DNA of 64,000 bases from Moraxella haemolytica (lineage in GTDB: Bacteria; Pseudomonadota; Gammaproteobacteria; Pseudomonadales; Moraxellaceae), in assembly GCF_030177935.1 (NCBI RefSeq), contig NZ_CP089974.1, positions 2,046,001 through 2,110,000 of the forward strand. The letters are read 5' to 3'. Every line of letters starts with the position of its first letter. Position 1 is the stretch's first letter. The notes below the pieces were generated by a model that was not told the DNA's origin, did no database searches, and saw only the letters and a program-made list of their open reading frames with translations. Shown in pieces: positions 35,884 through 43,921 of this stretch. Made by a program: the position numbers and the translations under genes.

Positions 35884-36112
35884 TTACCTACTAGACACCA
35901 AAGGGCTTATCTGCCCAGAACCCATCATGTTGCTACACAAGACCATCAGACAGGCACAAGATGGCGATGTCATCGAAATTCTTGCCACTGACCCTGCAAC
36001 CACCCGAGACATTCCAAATTTTTGTCGCCATCTGGGGCATACTCTTAACACTCAAGAAACGCTCGATGATGGCAGCTATCGTTACTTGGTCATCAAAAAG
36101 ATTCCATCATGA
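35876..36112 (+). CDS. tusA: Sulfurtransferase TusA family protein
   Basis: A 78-residue sulfur carrier. It shows the TusA signature LDTKGLICPEPIMLLHKTIR with the active Cys 13 in CPEP, followed by GDVIEILATDPATTRDIPNFCRHLGH. In E. coli TusA accepts sulfur from IscS for tRNA thiolation. The gene overlaps both neighbours (8 bases upstream, 4 bases into xerD), so the three are translated in series. Confidence 0.93.
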   Translation: MSNYLLDTKGLICPEPIMLLHKTIRQAQDGDVIEILATDPATTRDIPNFCRHLGHTLNTQETLDDGSYRYLVIKKIPS

Positions 36113-37035
36113 GCAAAACTCGTGCCAAAAATCCTCGAACACCCACCATCACCCATGTTGATGGCGACCCCGCCTACCTAACTGAGTTTCGCTCAGCAAT
36201 GCTGGCTCGTGGGCTGTCTGTGCGTACTCGTAACGCCTATGTTCAGGATTTGCGTGCTTGCCTTATGCACCTAGACAAACCCTTAACCCTATGGGATAAA
36301 AAAGATGTGCTAGCGTGCCTAAAACTTGCCCAAACACAGGGCAAAAATCCACGCACCATCGCAAGACTACTCGCCAGTTTGCGTCAGTTTTTTTTGTGGC
36401 AAATCGGCAACGAGGGCAGGCAAGACAACCCTTGCGAGGACATCAAATCCCCAAAAACCATCCAATCTCTACCAAAAACACTCTCAGAAAGCGACATCAA
36501 TCGCCTACTAGACACCCCAGACAGCAGTCTGCTTGGTCTGCGTGATAAAGCCATGTTAGAAATCATGTATGCCTGCGGATTGCGAGTAAGCGAGCTGGTC
36601 AATCTATCGCTTGAACAACTCAACATGAATGCAGGCTGGTTACAAATCACTGGTAAAGGCAACAAAACTCGTCTCATTCCCATGGGTGAATACGCCCAAC
36701 AAGCCCTACAAAGCTACCTAAACCACCGAGCTGAACTGCTCATCGGCAAATCCGACTGCCAAGCGGTTTTTTTAACCGAGCAAGGTGGCTACATGACACG
36801 GCACAACTTTTGGCATATGATCAAAAAATACGCCCTAAAAGCAGACATCAGAACCGATATTAGTCCACACACCCTTCGCCACGCATTCGCCACGCATCTG
36901 GTCAATCATGGGGCGGACTTGCGTAGTGTGCAACTATTGCTTGGGCATAGCGACCTATCCACCACGCAGATTTATACCCATGTTGCCACCGCTCGCCTGC
37001 AGACACTACATAAAGAACATCACCCTAGGGGGTAG
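36109..37035 (+). CDS. xerD: Tyrosine recombinase XerD
   Basis: Site-specific recombinase acting with XerC at dif to resolve chromosome dimers. The 308-residue chain has an N-terminal SAM-like domain (about 25-115) and a catalytic domain with ACGLRVSELVNL (first Arg), TGKGNKTRLIPM (Lys), HTLRHAFATHLVNHGADLR, LLGHSDLSTTQIYTH (His and the Tyr nucleophile). The sequence DLSTTQIYTHVATARL and the ending KEHHPRG are typical of XerD rather than XerC. Its last 11 bases overlap the end of the convergent helicase gene. Confidence 0.93.
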   Translation: MSKTRAKNPRTPTITHVDGDPAYLTEFRSAMLARGLSVRTRNAYVQDLRACLMHLDKPLTLWDKKDVLACLKLAQTQGKNPRTIARLLASLRQFFLWQIGNEGRQDNPCEDIKSPKTIQSLPKTLSESDINRLLDTPDSSLLGLRDKAMLEIMYACGLRVSELVNLSLEQLNMNAGWLQITGKGNKTRLIPMGEYAQQALQSYLNHRAELLIGKSDCQAVFLTEQGGYMTRHNFWHMIKKYALKADIRTDISPHTLRHAFATHLVNHGADLRSVQLLLGHSDLSTTQIYTHVATARLQTLHKEHHPRG

Positions 37036-39508
37036 TAAATTGTCTTTTGATGACGGTGTTAAACAGCCCTACATATTCATCTTTTTTATCAATCCCTGTG
37101 TATTCAAGGCTGGCATCCTCATAGCGTTTAAATTTATATACCGCATCATTCATCACACTTTCATCAAAGACATTTAATGACACCAACAAGGCAAAGTCCG
37201 CTTGGCTTAGACCTGTTACTTTGGTAAACAATTCAGGCTCCAACACCGAAATCACATCGATGAGCGTATGCTCACGATAATCACTCAAATACATAAAAAT
37301 CGGAATGCGAGTGGCAAATTTGATGAGTTTATCTTGAATTTGTTTTCGCAAAGATTTTTCTTTTTTCTCTTCTTCGGTCAAGGTCTTTTTGTCTTCTTTT
37401 GACAATTCGCCATCATTTTCTTTGGCTTTTTGTTTTAAACCTTTGATTTTTTCAGAGCGGTTAATTACCACCTCAATATCATCGTTGATACTTCTAAACT
37501 CTTCAATTTTCATCAAAGCGTTCATTGCATCAGCATTTGCCATCAAATTTTTTAAGGTCAAATCGTCCACATTGACAAGCAAAGCCGACTGCCACCGCCT
37601 TGCCAGTAGCGTGGCTGTCGTGCCAGACATCGCCATATCAAGGAGCAATCTTGCATCCACCTGTTGCATCGCACTACCATCATAAGCAAGTACTGGCAAA
37701 AACTGGATAAATTCAGCAACTTTTCTCTCAGGACTGCCCTCTGCTGGGTTTAGTTTATGGGCATAATCAGCGATTTGGCGTAAAGCACGATTGGGGGCAA
37801 AATCAAATATATAGCATTGGGTTTTAATAATAGTTATCTCATCATCACCCTTGATAGTCCAAGGGGTCTGTACCCGAAATCCCGCCTGAAAATAAGTCTC
37901 AGGACTGGCACAATTTCTAAGCATAAAAATCCCCGTCCAAGGAGATACAGATACGCCTGTCATCAATTTACCACACGATAGCGTAATAGACTTTGTGGAC
38001 AAAGGATTATCACCCATCGCTTTTTTGACAGGCTCTAGGGCTTTATCACCCATACCTGCCTGATTACCTGCTGAGATGATAACCTGATAATCGTGATAAA
38101 ATTTATTATTGGGAGCTTTTAATAAATTTGCCATTGCATAACAACTCGCCACACTAGGCAAAAACCAAAGCGTATGCAATAAGCTATTTAATAAATTCAC
38201 ATCACTAAACGGCATTGGCGGTTTGGCATTGCCTTGTTTTAAATTGCTAACAATCATCTCATCAAGATTATCACGAATTAAATCCAGCCATTTTTGCACA
38301 TAATTTTCGTGTTTAAATTTAGCCGTTTCGCCATTGCCGTCCGCTTTAAAAAATTCGCCCAAATCAAATTCATTAAATTCGCCTTGTGTGGCAATATGGC
38401 GAATATTTTCTGGTAATTGATAAGTTAATAACATCATTTGCGGCAATGACAAATAAGGATTATCGCCTTTTGTCTTATCCCATTCTAATTTGGCTTTTTG
38501 TTCATCACCATAAGTCCAGTTAAAAATCTGCTCTTCAATAAATTCACCACTGGCAATCGCTCGAAATGGCGTACCTGATAAATACAAATAATGCTCTGTG
38601 GTAATAGGCAATTCATTTTCATCAAAACTTTCTACCCCAATTTCCATTTCTTGATATTCATTTTGCATTTTTGTCAATTCATCATCTTTGGCAAAAAGCG
38701 ATTTGGCACTATCACGCCACGCTCCAAAATGATATTCATCAAATACCACACAATCCCAATTTAGCGTATGTAGCCATTCATTTTTAGCTTTGATATTGCC
38801 AAATTTGTCTCTACCCAAAACATCTTGAAAAGACGCAAAATACACCATCGGACGAGTTTTATCATAGTTTTCTAGCTTTAATTCACTATCACGGCTGATA
38901 AATTGCCAACCATTAAAATCGCTGTGGGTGGTTAAATCTTCCTGCCACGCATTTTTGACCGCAGGTTTAAAGGTTAAAATAAGCACTCTTTGCCAATTCA
39001 TCTTTTTGGCTAATTGATAGGTAGCAAACGTTTTACCAAATCGCATTTTGGCATTCCATAAAAAATGCGGTGTCCGCCCATTATTTTTATCTTGTTTAAT
39101 AGAATTAAAATAATAAGCGGTTTTATTCACAGCGTCTAATTGCTCTGGACGCATTTTAAAATCTTGTGTGCGTTGCCGTTCAAAAGTTTTGGCTTTCTTA
39201 ATATTTAAAATGGCGTTTTTGACAGTCTCAATATCGCAATCAAACCATTCGCCTGCAATGCGGTTAATGCCCATTGTTTCTAGCATTTTATGCACAGCAA
39301 AATCTTTAAAATAACTGCCGTCATCTTTAATCGCCAACGATTCAAATTCTAGTTTCCAACTTTGGCTTGGCGTAACGGTTGGATAATGCTGTTTCATTCG
39401 CTGGCTTACCGTTTCTTGGGCGGTGTAGCCGACTTTTAAGCAATTTGGATAACGGCTATCAGAATAAACATAAATCTTTGGGGCGTGAATGGGGGCAAAT
39501 TGGGTCAT
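37025..39508 (-). CDS. SF2 helicase with N-terminal GIY-YIG (T5orf172-like) nuclease domain
   Basis: An 827-residue protein, last gene of the minus-strand defence operon. The first 100 residues look like a GIY-YIG nuclease of the T5orf172 type: KIYVYSDSRYPNCLKVGYT (residues 11-29), a conserved Arg in SQRMKQH, His 73 and the catalytic-type Glu of GEWFDCD (residue 87). A superfamily 2 helicase follows: motif I KMRFGKT (Lys 159), motif II VFDEYHFG (257-260), motif III LSGTPFRA (311-314) and a motif VI-like QAGFRVQTPW. The last 200 residues are lysine/glutamate-rich and then globular; I see no PD-(D/E)xK site. I infer an ATP-dependent restriction-like subunit in which the GIY-YIG domain cuts. ATGA overlaps the FRG gene stop. 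Confidence 0.75.
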   Translation of the reverse strand: MTQFAPIHAPKIYVYSDSRYPNCLKVGYTAQETVSQRMKQHYPTVTPSQSWKLEFESLAIKDDGSYFKDFAVHKMLETMGINRIAGEWFDCDIETVKNAILNIKKAKTFERQRTQDFKMRPEQLDAVNKTAYYFNSIKQDKNNGRTPHFLWNAKMRFGKTFATYQLAKKMNWQRVLILTFKPAVKNAWQEDLTTHSDFNGWQFISRDSELKLENYDKTRPMVYFASFQDVLGRDKFGNIKAKNEWLHTLNWDCVVFDEYHFGAWRDSAKSLFAKDDELTKMQNEYQEMEIGVESFDENELPITTEHYLYLSGTPFRAIASGEFIEEQIFNWTYGDEQKAKLEWDKTKGDNPYLSLPQMMLLTYQLPENIRHIATQGEFNEFDLGEFFKADGNGETAKFKHENYVQKWLDLIRDNLDEMIVSNLKQGNAKPPMPFSDVNLLNSLLHTLWFLPSVASCYAMANLLKAPNNKFYHDYQVIISAGNQAGMGDKALEPVKKAMGDNPLSTKSITLSCGKLMTGVSVSPWTGIFMLRNCASPETYFQAGFRVQTPWTIKGDDEITIIKTQCYIFDFAPNRALRQIADYAHKLNPAEGSPERKVAEFIQFLPVLAYDGSAMQQVDARLLLDMAMSGTTATLLARRWQSALLVNVDDLTLKNLMANADAMNALMKIEEFRSINDDIEVVINRSEKIKGLKQKAKENDGELSKEDKKTLTEEEKKEKSLRKQIQDKLIKFATRIPIFMYLSDYREHTLIDVISVLEPELFTKVTGLSQADFALLVSLNVFDESVMNDAVYKFKRYEDASLEYTGIDKKDEYVGLFNTVIKRQFTTP

Positions 39509-40563
39509 TTTAGTTGTTCCTTATAACGGCTAATGATATGGGTTGCTTGACTATCTAATTCAGGAAATAGGGTTTGGCGACTAATGCCAACTCTTTCTAA
39601 ATTTTTTAAGATTTCTTTTTTTGAGTTTTTATCAATAATCAATTTATGAATAGACCAATCTTTTTGAGCTTCTACTTTTGAAAATCTGGATTTAACCTCA
39701 TCAATACCAAAAATCAAAAACGCCCCCTGTTGCCTTTCTATTCTGCGATTGTTGGCTTTTGACTTTACACAGATAACTTGATTAACATCACGGTAATCCA
39801 TATGTGGCAGAAAATACGGCTTATCTTTACGAACATCGTTAAGCAGGGTAATAATTTCTGCAATTCCATTTAACTCATTATTGATAGAATTAAAATAGCT
39901 CTCATTATACTCCCCGCAATTCCTATTGAATATATCTTCATCAATACTTTCAAGCCTTTCTGAACTTAAAGTTAAATTAGATAATAGACTTGGATTGTTT
40001 TTAAATTTTTTTCTAGCAATATCCAGATTATTCAAAAAATTATCTTCTGCAATTTTTTTGTAAAAACCAATATCAAAATCTATTTTTTGCAAAGAAAGTG
40101 CTGACAATATAGCAACTGTATCGCTGTCTTGGTATTTAATTTTATTAGTAGGAATATCTAAGATGATAACTTCGCCATCTTTTAAATCATCACCAAAGAT
40201 ATTTTCTTGATGACATTTTTGACTGTTCATAGTCCCGTCATTTTTATTGACAGCAAAATATAAACCAACCAAAGCATTATAAGAAATATCCAACAATCTT
40301 GTTGGGCAATCATAGTGTTGCATTCTTACCAATTTATCAAAGAGCATTTCGTGTGGCGGAAAATATTCGGCACATTCAGTCAAAACATCTTTTACAATTC
40401 TATCCTCATTATTTATTAAGCTGTTATCTCTATATATACTGGGTATCATCTTATATTCACTATCGGAATGACCACGAAAAAATCTTGTGTGATTTTCTTT
40501 TAATCCTAGTATTGCAACCTGCTCAACAAATTGTTGAATACTCGTAATTTTAATTTCACTCAT
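39505..40563 (-). CDS. FRG-domain protein of the defence operon
   Basis: A 352-residue protein with an N-terminal FRG domain. The name-giving motif is RFFRGHSDSEYKMIPSIYR near residue 30, and the second conserved block is MQHYDCPTRLLDISYNALVGLYFAV in parts (about residues 82-106). FRG domains are found in phage- and defence-associated proteins but their biochemical activity is not settled. The C-terminal 200 residues show no domain I recognise. Three overlapping starts (GTG, ATG, ATG) exist; the ATG at 40563 has the best distance from GGAGG. It overlaps the methyltransferase gene upstream and the helicase gene downstream, so stoichiometric coexpression is likely. Confidence 0.75.
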   Translation of the reverse strand: MSEIKITSIQQFVEQVAILGLKENHTRFFRGHSDSEYKMIPSIYRDNSLINNEDRIVKDVLTECAEYFPPHEMLFDKLVRMQHYDCPTRLLDISYNALVGLYFAVNKNDGTMNSQKCHQENIFGDDLKDGEVIILDIPTNKIKYQDSDTVAILSALSLQKIDFDIGFYKKIAEDNFLNNLDIARKKFKNNPSLLSNLTLSSERLESIDEDIFNRNCGEYNESYFNSINNELNGIAEIITLLNDVRKDKPYFLPHMDYRDVNQVICVKSKANNRRIERQQGAFLIFGIDEVKSRFSKVEAQKDWSIHKLIIDKNSKKEILKNLERVGISRQTLFPELDSQATHIISRYKEQLK

Positions 40564-42217
40564 CATCACCCTCCAATAAATCCGCTTGTTTTGCTTTTTT
40601 GGTACGTGATTTTTTAGGTTTGTCGCTGTCGTTATCCATTGGGCGTATCATACTTTCAATAAAGTTAATTTCATCTTTGGATAAGCCATATTTGGCATAA
40701 AGCTGTTCATCTGCCCACGAACGATTAAAATCCTGCATTGGTACCAACGCATAAGTTGATTTTGTCGTGTTTTGCGTATTTTTAACCAAAGTAACCATGA
40801 AATGAAAAAATTTTGTGCTAATATAACTTATTACATTATTACAAATTTCTTCACTTTCAAAAGTTCCAATAACCAAATAAGTTTCGGTGCAAGCACTATT
40901 TACTCCTGCACAAATAGGTTTAATTAAGTCAGTTTGACTTTCGCCAGTTCCAAATTCTTTTGGAATTAGAATCTTATGCCTTAAAATTAAATCTCTATTA
41001 TGGGATATATCTTCAAGTTTGATATAAGAAGTTTTATTAAGGCTATATAGTTTTACATTGTCAGTTCTATTTTTATAAGGCAGGTTGTTTCCTGTAAACC
41101 TACTTGCTAAACGAAATGGATTTCTTGAACTAACAAAATCCCCAAAAGACTTTTCTTGTTTTTCATTAACTTTTCTCAAAATAGAAATGGCTTTGTTATA
41201 TCTAATAAGAATATCTATCCCATTTTCCTTTAATGGTCTTTTTAATCGAGAAATACAATGTCCATTTTCATAAGTAAAAAACTCACAATCATCATTGTGA
41301 GTTTTATCCCATAAAAAATAGCTTACACCACCTTTAATTTCCACATTGTCAAAACAATCTTTTGAATTGGGAAAATCGTGAATTTCTTTAATGCGTTTAT
41401 CATTGAGCATATTATCCCGAAATTCATCAAGACCTTTACCGCCTGTAAACCAACGGCTAGGGGTAATCATAATCAAATAATTGGGATTTATTTTTTTAGC
41501 TTGTTCTACAAATTTATGATATAACGGAATAGCACTACTTCCAACACCACCGCCATCACTTAATTGATAAGGCGGATTGCCAATAATCACATCAAATTTC
41601 ATTTTTAAAATCTCTTTAAATTCATTGTCTTTATCGCTATGAATAAACGCATAAGCGTGGTTTTCCAACCCCTGCCGATTACCAAAAACATCTTGGCTTG
41701 CCCCACATTCTGTGCATTTGCCACTTTGAAAGCTGTGATTGACATCGCCAAATATAATATTGCCCATATCATTATCAAACTCATCACAAATAGAGATGGA
41801 CGAATTAGCATATTTAGCACAATATACGCTGCGGCGTGATAACAGAGCGGTTAGCTGAGTGATGGCTATGCCATAGACTTGATTTTTTAGAATATGGTTA
41901 ATGCGAGTTTGTTTATCTGGGATTTGACTTTCTAAGCCTTTGTCTAATCGCTTAACAATTTCTCTTAAAAATACACCAGATTTACACACAGGGTCCAAAA
42001 ATTTGGCATTGGGATTTGTCCATAATTCATTGGGCAATAAATCAAGCATTTGATTGGCTAATTTTGGTGAAGTAAATACCTCGTCATTAGATAGGCTTGA
42101 CAAACAATCAAGCACATCAGGATTGTAAGCCAATTCAAATAAATTTAATTGACCTTTGCCAATATTATCCAAATCCTTGGTAATATTACTGTCTATCTGA
42201 ATATTGAGATTGTTCAT
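40556..42217 (-). CDS. Eco57I-type DNA adenine N6-methyltransferase
   Basis: A 553-residue DNA methyltransferase expected to transfer methyl from SAM to adenine. Motif I is KFLDPVCKSGVFLREI (residues about 72-87) and the catalytic motif IV is DVIIGNPPYQL (NPPY at 214-217). A small CxxC (GKCTECGASQ) between them may bind a metal. The region after residue 240 (ITPSRWFTGGKGLDEFRD, KEIHDFP) is typical of Eco57I-like enzymes, and the C-terminal half (LPYKNRTDNVKLYSL onward) probably recognises the target sequence. A lysine-rich tail ends the protein. It starts 3 bases after the stop of the short methyltransferase-like gene. Confidence 0.85.
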   Translation of the reverse strand: MNNLNIQIDSNITKDLDNIGKGQLNLFELAYNPDVLDCLSSLSNDEVFTSPKLANQMLDLLPNELWTNPNAKFLDPVCKSGVFLREIVKRLDKGLESQIPDKQTRINHILKNQVYGIAITQLTALLSRRSVYCAKYANSSISICDEFDNDMGNIIFGDVNHSFQSGKCTECGASQDVFGNRQGLENHAYAFIHSDKDNEFKEILKMKFDVIIGNPPYQLSDGGGVGSSAIPLYHKFVEQAKKINPNYLIMITPSRWFTGGKGLDEFRDNMLNDKRIKEIHDFPNSKDCFDNVEIKGGVSYFLWDKTHNDDCEFFTYENGHCISRLKRPLKENGIDILIRYNKAISILRKVNEKQEKSFGDFVSSRNPFRLASRFTGNNLPYKNRTDNVKLYSLNKTSYIKLEDISHNRDLILRHKILIPKEFGTGESQTDLIKPICAGVNSACTETYLVIGTFESEEICNNVISYISTKFFHFMVTLVKNTQNTTKSTYALVPMQDFNRSWADEQLYAKYGLSKDEINFIESMIRPMDNDSDKPKKSRTKKAKQADLLEGDDE

Positions 42218-42220
42218 GGG

Positions 42221-42904
42221 CTAGTCCAGTTGAGTTAGGTTTAAATAATGAATGGGTGCATATTCTTTGATGGGTGTGGGGATATAAGCCTTTTCGCCCA
42301 AATCAGAAAACAATGGTAATTCTCGTTCGCTGACTTTATTGACCAAATCACGGTAAATATAATCACGGCGATTGATTTGAGTGTCGCTGATGAACTTCCA
42401 TTCACAAAAAACTATCGGTTGTTTATCTTTATCCAGCAATGTCAAGGCATCGCCATTGATGATATTTTTGTGCAATAAGAAAGTTGCAATTTCAATGATG
42501 ACTGGGTTGGTATTGTTAAAATATTTGGCATAATGCTCGCTAAATATCGCCAGCAATCGGCTGCGGCACTCGGTGCAGTTATCCTGCAACAACTCAAGAC
42601 CATAAATGGACGATATCGCCAATATGGCATTACGCTCATAAATGCCTTGGGCGTATTTTGGCGATTTTTTGCTTTTGTTGATTTGAGCAGATGATAAGAC
42701 GGTAGCAAGTTTTCGCTGTAAAATCTGAGCCAAAAAGTTGCCATTACCACAGGCAGGCTCCAAAAAGGTACTGGCAATTTGCTCAGATTGGAATTTGACC
42801 AAATCAAGCATTGCGTTTACCTCACGCTCAGCGGTAAATACCTCACCAAAATTGGCAATACGGGCTTTGGATTTGACTTGTTTTGAAGTGGCGGTATCAT
42901 TCAT
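42221..42904 (-). CDS. Short methyltransferase-like protein lacking motif IV
   Basis: A 227-residue protein, first gene of the defence operon. It begins with a typical adenine-methyltransferase N-terminus: RIANFGEVFTAEREVNAML and the SAM-binding motif I TFLEPACGNGNFLAQIL (residues about 46-61). No NPPY or DPPY is present, and the chain ends where that motif would come, so it may be an accessory or SAM-binding partner of the next gene rather than an active enzyme. The end, LGEKAYIPTPIKEY, does not match a domain I know. A TAA stop lies six codons upstream in frame, so the octamer tract is not part of the coding sequence. Confidence 0.7.
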   Translation of the reverse strand: MNDTATSKQVKSKARIANFGEVFTAEREVNAMLDLVKFQSEQIASTFLEPACGNGNFLAQILQRKLATVLSSAQINKSKKSPKYAQGIYERNAILAISSIYGLELLQDNCTECRSRLLAIFSEHYAKYFNNTNPVIIEIATFLLHKNIINGDALTLLDKDKQPIVFCEWKFISDTQINRRDYIYRDLVNKVSERELPLFSDLGEKAYIPTPIKEYAPIHYLNLTQLD

Positions 42905-43312
42905 TTTGCACCGCCTACCTTAAATTTTTGACAACAAAAAAGCTCACCCCCAATGGAGATGAACTTTAAGGCACGAACAAAAAGTCCGCCAAACCAAAAT
43001 AGTTTAACAGAAAATAGGCACAGCTTTAGTAGGTGTGCAGGTGTGCAGGTGTGCAGGTGTGCAGGTGTGCAGGTGTGCAGGTGTGCAGGTGTGCAGGTGT
43101 GCAGGTGTGCAGGTGTGCAGGTGTGCAGGTGTGCAGGTGTGCATTATAGCGCTTTTAATCAAGACATCAATCATAATTTCACAAAACAACTCTTGTTTTA
43201 ATAAATTTTATCACATAATCAATGCTTTTCAATCAAAAAATACCTTTAATCAATGTTTTATCCGCCTTATCTTTTGTTATAATATCCCCAACCTAGCCAT
43301 AACGAGAATCAC
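42905..43312. other. Intergenic region holding the tract and two divergent promoters
   Basis: Besides the octamer tract, the left part (42905-43030) contains the start region of the defence operon with an AGG ribosome site and TATTTT words near 43010 on the minus strand that would place the -35 at the tract edge. The right part has TATAAT at 43278-43283, the likely -10 of the RsmC-like gene. Confidence 0.5.
43031..43142. repeat. 14 perfect tandem copies of the octamer AGGTGTGC
   Basis: The tract is 112 bp, 14 exact copies of an 8-bp unit with no interruptions. Such perfect octamer tracts change length by slipped-strand mispairing. It lies 126 bp upstream of the first gene of the defence operon (minus strand) and 170 bp upstream of the divergent RsmC-like gene, with no open frame running through it into either gene. 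It would therefore act on transcription or on an untranslated leader. Confidence 0.97.
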
Positions 43313-43921
43313 ATGAGCACCACCCTAGCCGAACTACAACAAAAAGCCAAACTCTGGCGACAAGACATCAGCTTTAGTCAAGAAGTGCTTGGCAAGAGCT
43401 TTGACTTTCGTAGCACTTGGGGCATCTTTAGTCCCGAACGGCTTGATGATGGCAGTCTGATGCTGCTTGATTATATTGATTTTAAAGCCGATGACAGCTC
43501 CATCGACTTAGGCTGTGGCTATGGCGTCTTGGGCATGACAGCGGCTCGTGAATGCCCAGAAGGTCAGCACTTACTCATTGATAAAGATTTTGTGGCGGTA
43601 GAATACGCTCGCCTAAACTGCCAAAAAAATGGTCTAAAAAACACCGAAGTTATGCTCTCAAATGGCTTCGCCCATGTACCAAAAGAGCGTAAATTCTCCC
43701 TTGTGATGAGTAATCTGCCTGCCAAAGCAAGCAAAGAACAACACTACCTTTACCTACTAGACGCTTATGAGCGAATGGAAATGGATGGACGCTTTTATGT
43801 TGTTACCATCAATGGACTAAGAGACTTTATGAAGCGTTCATTTACAGAAGTGTTTGGCAACTCAGACAAAATCAAACAAGGCAAGACCTACACCATCACC
43901 ATGGCGGTCAAAGACAGCTAA
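43313..43921 (+). CDS. RsmC/RlmG-like class I SAM methyltransferase
   Basis: A 202-residue methyltransferase with a single MTS-type domain. The SAM motif is SIDLGCGYGVLGMTAA (near residue 63), preceded by GIFSPERLDDGSLMLLDYI. The catalytic motif IV position reads SNLPAKASKEQHY rather than the NPPFH of RsmC. That form is found in short relatives that act on guanine N2 of rRNA; substrate here is not certain. It has its own TATAAT promoter beyond the octamer tract and is followed 15 bases later by the dGTPase gene. Confidence 0.75.
   Translation: MSTTLAELQQKAKLWRQDISFSQEVLGKSFDFRSTWGIFSPERLDDGSLMLLDYIDFKADDSSIDLGCGYGVLGMTAARECPEGQHLLIDKDFVAVEYARLNCQKNGLKNTEVMLSNGFAHVPKERKFSLVMSNLPAKASKEQHYLYLLDAYERMEMDGRFYVVTINGLRDFMKRSFTEVFGNSDKIKQGKTYTITMAVKDS

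Follow-up and report, generated by a model that had tools for sequence, protein, structure and literature searches.

A DrdVI-like split restriction operon in Moraxella haemolytica, with an FRG gene as exchangeable cargo and a probably phase-variable leader

In this work, we have used Pfam, NCBIfam and PADLOC profiles, together with sequence comparisons, to characterise a four-gene operon of Moraxella haemolytica. The operon lies in a window of 64,000 nucleotides, the whole stretch of DNA analysed (contig NZ_CP089974.1, positions 2,046,001 to 2,110,000). By homology, three of its genes, M1, M2 and R, are firmly members of the DrdVI kind, a named split type IIG restriction system, and the fourth, an FRG gene inserted between M2 and R, is exchangeable cargo. 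We consider it reasonably probable that the whole is a DrdVI-like split restriction-modification (RM) operon with an embedded, abortive FRG effector and a leader that is probably phase-variable. The M1-M2-R arrangement has already been named; what is new here is the division of motifs between M1 and M2, the cargo slot between M2 and R, FRG as one of its cargoes, and the leader repeat. The genes and their principal motifs, in the order of transcription, are as follows.

42221..42904, minus strand: M1-like gene (gene 1, 227 amino acids, aa), a methylase half with the GxG S-adenosylmethionine (SAM) motif and without NPPY; 39.7% identity over 219 aa to M1 of pDrdVI
42740..42760, minus strand: SAM motif I of M1, E49-G55, placed by alignment
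40556..42217, minus strand: M2-like gene (gene 2, 553 aa), an Eco57I-family adenine methylase with NPPY; 44.4% identity over 529 aa to M2 of pDrdVI
41567..41578, minus strand: NPPY motif of M2, N214-Y217, placed by alignment
39505..40569, minus strand: FRG gene (gene 3, 354 aa, GTG start), matching Pfam FRG and PADLOC PDC-S15; cargo of the M2-R slot
40237..40482, minus strand: FRG domain, residues 30-111 (Pfam)
37025..39508, minus strand: R gene (gene 4, 827 aa), a GIY-YIG-type domain with an SF2 helicase/translocase; 51.2% identity over 841 columns to R of pDrdVI
39203..39475, minus strand: T5orf172 (GIY-YIG) domain of R, residues 12-102 (Pfam), with Y13, K25, G27, R37 and E87 conserved
38696..39160, minus strand: ResIII (SF2 helicase) match of R, residues 117-271, with K159 and DEYH at 257-260 (Pfam and R alignment)

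The four open reading frames (ORFs) are intact and lie in an interval bounded on one side by xerD (36109-37035) and on the other by an rsmC-like gene (43313-43921). M1 and M2 are 3 base pairs (bp) apart, M2 and FRG overlap by 14 bp, and FRG and R by 4 bp. In 500-base windows the G+C content of the operon is 28-44%, against mostly 42-51% in the flanks, so that both the close packing and the AT-richness noticed in a preliminary description of this DNA are real. Gene 2 matches Eco57I (9.1e-37), gene 3 matches FRG (PF08867; 9.5e-17, 62.1 bits against a curated cut-off of 25), and gene 4 matches T5orf172 (8.7e-9) and ResIII (1.1e-5), both over their cut-offs. For gene 1 there is only a weak match to MmeI_Mtase (20.7 bits, under the cut-off of 27). 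The preliminary description had called this gene a methyltransferase with motif I only; it is indeed short and carries motif I, but it holds more than that, since it resembles the N-terminal half of a methylase without NPPY, including what we take, by eye, to be motifs X, I, II and III.

The kinship with DrdVI is carried by sequence identity and by gene order. When R was compared with plasmids by tblastn, 79 records were matched; the match spans 80% or more of the query in 12, among them pDrdVI of Deinococcus wulumuqiensis NEB 479, whose R is 51.2% identical over 99% of the query and is preceded by two methylase genes; M1 and M2 of the window are 39.7% and 44.4% identical to these. The three genes stand in the same order in both; on pDrdVI no gene lies between M2 and R and there is no FRG, whereas the window has FRG at that place. 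M1-2.DrdVI is a type IIG system that makes N6-methyladenine (6mA, m6A) at GCAGCC and has been cloned and expressed in E. coli (PMC6430315), and because M1, M2 and R are homologous to genes of this known activity we place them in the named kind. A split M1/M2 pair is also present in Methanococcus aeolicus, where M1/M2.MaeIV is reported to be similar to DrdVI and to produce m6A at GCACY (PMC10113651); its likeness to the window is drawn from this description. The earlier proposal of an undescribed four-gene system was thus not borne out, three of the four genes having a match in a named restriction family.

The arrangement is widespread. A scan of genome contigs with the R alignment confirmed at least 581 relatives, and among the best 80 loci, which were analysed, M2 stands beside R in 75; four of the five loci without M2 have less than 1.8 kb upstream of R. 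The order M1-M2-R on one strand holds in all 75 loci with M2, as in the window, where FRG is inserted. M1 was seen in 65 of these, and in eight of the other ten M2 starts less than 200 bp from a contig end. In the genus, 11 of 22 genomes have an R-like match (G001 among them with only the fused type described below), as have 13 of 149 genomes drawn from the family and, at E 1e-100, 9 of 369 drawn from the class.

The domains of M2 and R are also known in a single chain, the GIY-YIG-helicase-Eco57I protein of PADLOC model PDLC03626 (REase_MTase_IIG), which has them in the same order and is matched by both M2 and R of the window. The window's own genome encodes such a protein elsewhere (L037 4477-9677; G000:C1, approximately 1634476-1639676), one chain of 1427 aa in place of the window's separate M2 and R; the gene upstream of it is M1-like but divergent and encodes 306 aa. 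Compared with the window's proteins, the R part of the fused chain shows 33% identity and the M2 part 27%, and the chain is a distant cousin of the split system. Type ISP enzymes (LlaGI, LlaBIII) likewise pair an SF2 translocase and a nuclease with an adenine methylase. In contrast with the window's three chains and GIY-YIG-type domain, they are single chains with an Mrr-family nuclease, as stated in the relevant passages of PMC4666363; the three chains and the T5orf172 match at the N-terminus, where that type has its Mrr-family nuclease, rule out membership of it.

How the methylase is divided can be read from 76 M1 and 75 M2 sequences of genome-contig, plasmid and genus loci, filtered by length and excluding the window's own. 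GxG is present in 75 of 76 M1 proteins and NPPY in none (0/76); conversely, NPP[YF] is found in 75/75 M2 proteins and GxG in 0/75, Lys-Ser-Gly taking its place in 64. Since the SAM motif and NPPY are divided between the two proteins in this way, the counts suggest that M1 and M2 form an obligate pair, a two-subunit enzyme in which M1 would supply SAM binding and M2 catalysis and target recognition, the last presumably through its variable C-terminal part. Together they would methylate an adenine within a short asymmetric target.

R, in turn, would combine an SF2 translocase with a GIY-YIG nuclease at its N-terminus and cut unmarked DNA. In an alignment of 91 rows (the window and 90 relatives), K25, G27, R37, E87, K159, T160 and DEYH are invariant and Y13 is present in 90. 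The preliminary description had recognised in R a GIY-YIG-type (T5orf172) domain joined to an SF2 helicase within a restriction system, singling out E87 and K159, and the Pfam matches and the conserved residues agree with it on each point. The T5orf172 model found no match in the R of pDrdVI at 0.01; because this is below threshold, the nuclease assignment of that protein rests on the alignment. We infer that the GIY-YIG domain would be the DNA cutter.

The gap between M2 and R is a cargo slot. Its length in the 75 loci is two-peaked, with 39 gaps of up to 20 bp, 6 of 21-200 bp, 4 of 201-450 bp and 26 of more than 450 bp; the M1-M2 gap exceeds 200 bp in 6 of 65. Mechanical picking of slot ORFs of at least 100 aa gave 47, some of which are perhaps not genes, and 25 were scanned with Pfam. 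Of the 26 large-gap loci, 13 hold a Pfam-matched slot ORF (L041, L043, L044, L045, L059, L064, L066, L078, L080, L088, L090, L102, L105), seven were assigned by BLAST kinship alone (L048, L060, L063, L077, L082, L084, L085), and one (L114) has HEPN_AbiU2 under the family cut-off. The remaining five carry no assignment: the scanned slot ORF of L056 had no Pfam match, and four loci (L049, L050, L052, L109) lay outside the Pfam scans. Judged by these matches, the slot often carries toxin-like, nuclease or other restriction-associated genes. Cargoes in either gap comprise YhcG/DUF1016 nucleases, Bro-N, RhuM, ORF6N, PDDEXK_3 and FRG, and further AbiEii-type AAA_21 (in L044 also DUF4276), HEPN_AbiV, HEPN_ApeA and Schlafen AlbA_2. 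Two other insertions were observed: a DarT-Macro protein in the M1-M2 gap of a DrdVI-like operon from an Anaerolineales metagenome-assembled genome (L069 3087-4265), and, on the Corynebacterium plasmid pCRULAC2 (L024 1-9469), a DrdVI-like M2 and R parted by a Tn3-family transposase, an insertion sequence and two annotated aminoglycoside phosphotransferase genes. In a search of the open-licence literature, DrdVI-like operons were found described neither with cargo nor with a leader repeat; this is a weak negative, its scope including neither REBASE nor the 2024 preprint by Payne et al. about embedded defences.

That FRG is such cargo, absent or replaced in close relatives, is seen best within the Moraxellaceae. 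Among loci with an R 77-93% identical to the window's, FRG is found in L031 and L034, the slot is empty in L032 and L033, and a protein of 220 aa fills it in L006, L030 and L145, as it does in L029, whose R is 63% identical. The closest R found, that of L145 (93%), belongs to another genus and has the 220-aa gene where the window has FRG. These 220-aa genes lie at L029 9024-9686, L030 2438-3103, L006 195-860 and L145 6893-7558, and their product shows at most a likeness to DUF3223 below the cut-off. In seven of eight slot-bearing loci compared the slot gene starts inside a shared M2 tail that ends in TGATGAGT, and R begins a few bases after the slot gene, L029 being the exception in both respects; such junctions are what cassette exchange would leave. 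In the R tree, where most forks are unsupported, the slot labels do not cluster.

What would FRG do there? Its predicted model weakly resembles ADP-ribosyltransferases (ARTs), which make up 8 of 10 fold-comparison rows, and passages of published work put FRG in the ART superfamily, as a possible NADase. FRG is likely an ART-type effector, in line with the extra effector role first suggested for it. The genus has four FRG matches, and each is followed directly by the R gene of a restriction operon, in one case a type I operon. They are of at least two unlike kinds, the FRG of that type I operon (L154) being 25% identical to the window's. The four-gene order M1-M2-FRG-R recurs in two further genomes of the genus (G009 and G015), and a third (G010) has a collapsed FRG-R remnant. 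The type I operon itself, hsdM-hsdS-FRG-hsdR at the xerD/rsmC-like site of G015 (L154 3631-10495), has FRG directly before hsdR. Toxin-type genes inside an RM locus are known from PrrC in EcoprrI and from DarTG2, which in enteropathogenic E. coli lies between hsdS and hsdR and is the ADP-ribosyltransferase case among embedded toxins, as far as the pertinent passages of PMC12707154 and PMC12255303 describe them; there the hosts are type I and the toxins are others, whereas the window has a DrdVI-like host with FRG as its cargo. We hypothesize that FRG guards restriction: an infection that evades or blocks restriction would trigger this predicted ART-fold enzyme, which would stop the cell through loss of nicotinamide adenine dinucleotide (NAD) or ADP-ribosylation.

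The operon occupies a site that is a hotspot of restriction systems in the genus. At the limits set, xerD was found in 20 of 22 genomes and the rsmC-like gene in 21. Judged by coordinates, the interval between them (36109-43921 in the window, genes included) holds a DrdVI-like operon in G000, the genome of the window, and in G009, and R adjoins xerD in G013 and G002. A methylase carrying an HSDR_N_2 domain, of the BcgI-like kind, is found there in G004, G005 and G011 (the scan of a Methylase_S gene covered G004), and the type I operon with FRG occupies the interval in G015. With 61-135 bp the interval is nearly empty in G001, G008, G014 and G019, and it measures 1.0-1.8 kb in G012, G016 and G020, with an aminotransferase-like gene in G016. 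The other genomes have xerD and the rsmC-like gene on different contigs, or one of the two was not found.

The leader of M1 contains four further elements.

43143..43170, minus strand: promoter-like site TTGATG-16-TATAAT, predicted from its match to the consensus at 10 of 12 positions
43031..43143, minus strand: perfect 8-bp tandem repeat TGCACACC, 14.1 copies, abutting the -10 box
42985..43011, minus strand: predicted terminator-like hairpin 1
42939..42967, minus strand: predicted terminator-like hairpin 2

Both hairpins lie between the array and M1, and the TGCACACC repeat is found nowhere else in the genome. Four relatives have arrays with units of 7-8 bp at the equivalent spot, namely CGTTCAGC (16.1 copies, L145), TGCGTACC (12.4, L031), ACCTGCGT (12.5, L029) and AGCGTCA (7.7, L033), and the arrays differ between species, one genome per species being compared. 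The leaders of L034 and L036 have no array and, by eye, about one copy of the CGTTCAGC unit; that of L030 is cut off. In L029, L031 and L033 a promoter match of 11/12 lies close to the array, the distance from its end being 0-9 bp, and no promoter match ends near the array in L145. Besides the window, L033 and L029 have called terminator-like hairpins; none were called in L031 or L145, though the leader of L145 folds into an 11-bp stem that precedes a T run. These five are the only arrays of 7-9-bp units with at least five exact copies in the 284,607 Moraxellaceae bases surveyed, a sample that is not random because it was chosen around these and the FRG loci; and of 65 other M1 loci with at least 250 bp upstream, only L041 has an array (ACGC, 8 copies). 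A tandem repeat at the gene start or promoter is the mark of RM systems that vary in phase through simple sequence repeats (SSRs), and here 14.1 perfect copies stand at the -10 box. This layout suggests that the leader is phase-variable and attenuated, the array and the hairpins together making expression switchable, which we offer as a hypothesis. Type III toxin-antitoxin loci also have repeats, of about 34-44 nucleotides, followed by a terminator and an endoribonuclease gene; the 8-bp units and the methylase gene downstream rule out that reading of the leader.

Against an abortive effector tied to restriction stands the view that FRG is an independent defence gene, parked for co-expression, that neither senses nor guards the restriction enzyme. 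We regard this as quite possible. FRG relatives occur by themselves, with housekeeping genes on either side, in L149 and L151, and also in 44 viral loci without DrdVI-like genes, and L145, so close in R, works, if at all, without FRG. The tgvAB genes of Vibrio, embedded in a type I operon, protect on their own, according to the part of PMC11411939 that treats them. The position of all four genus FRG matches, of at least two unlike kinds, directly before a restriction R favours some link, but one that co-expression alone could explain. It is improbable, in our judgement, that the restriction system has been silenced or is in decay, the operon being shut by the leader hairpins and FRG a passenger: the terminator-like hairpins, the G010 remnant and a related system that is fragmented and inactive in Bibersteinia (in the account given in a portion of PMC4996451) would fit, but all four ORFs of the window are intact and the active-site residues of R are invariant. 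Finally, that the four genes are a new restriction-defence system with FRG as a fixed working part is hardly credible, for, despite their tight operon and the same order in G009 and G015, FRG is missing beside R relatives 86-93% identical (L006, L032, L033, L145) and M1-M2-R alone is the rule, with M2 and R at most 20 bp apart in 39 of 75 loci.

The DrdVI-like RM operon with an abortive FRG effector can be extended to a wider proposal, which we hold to be doubtful if conceivable: that DrdVI-like operons are a platform of guarded restriction, in which the M2-R swap site would make suicide effectors of exchangeable kinds (FRG/ART, DarT-Macro, HEPN, AbiEii-type ATPases, Schlafen-type) depend on how the restriction enzyme fares, the effector firing when restriction is inhibited, and that in Moraxella the bundle would be switched by a repeat-controlled, attenuated leader.

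What does this mean for the DrdVI family? The candidate operon is now placed in a named and hardly studied restriction family, for which a sharing of tasks by two half-methylases can be put to the test. Its M2-R junction accepts exchangeable toxin-type genes, as type I loci accept PrrC or DarTG2, and the guarding of restriction enzymes by embedded effectors becomes testable outside type I, in an operon that is possibly phase-variable.

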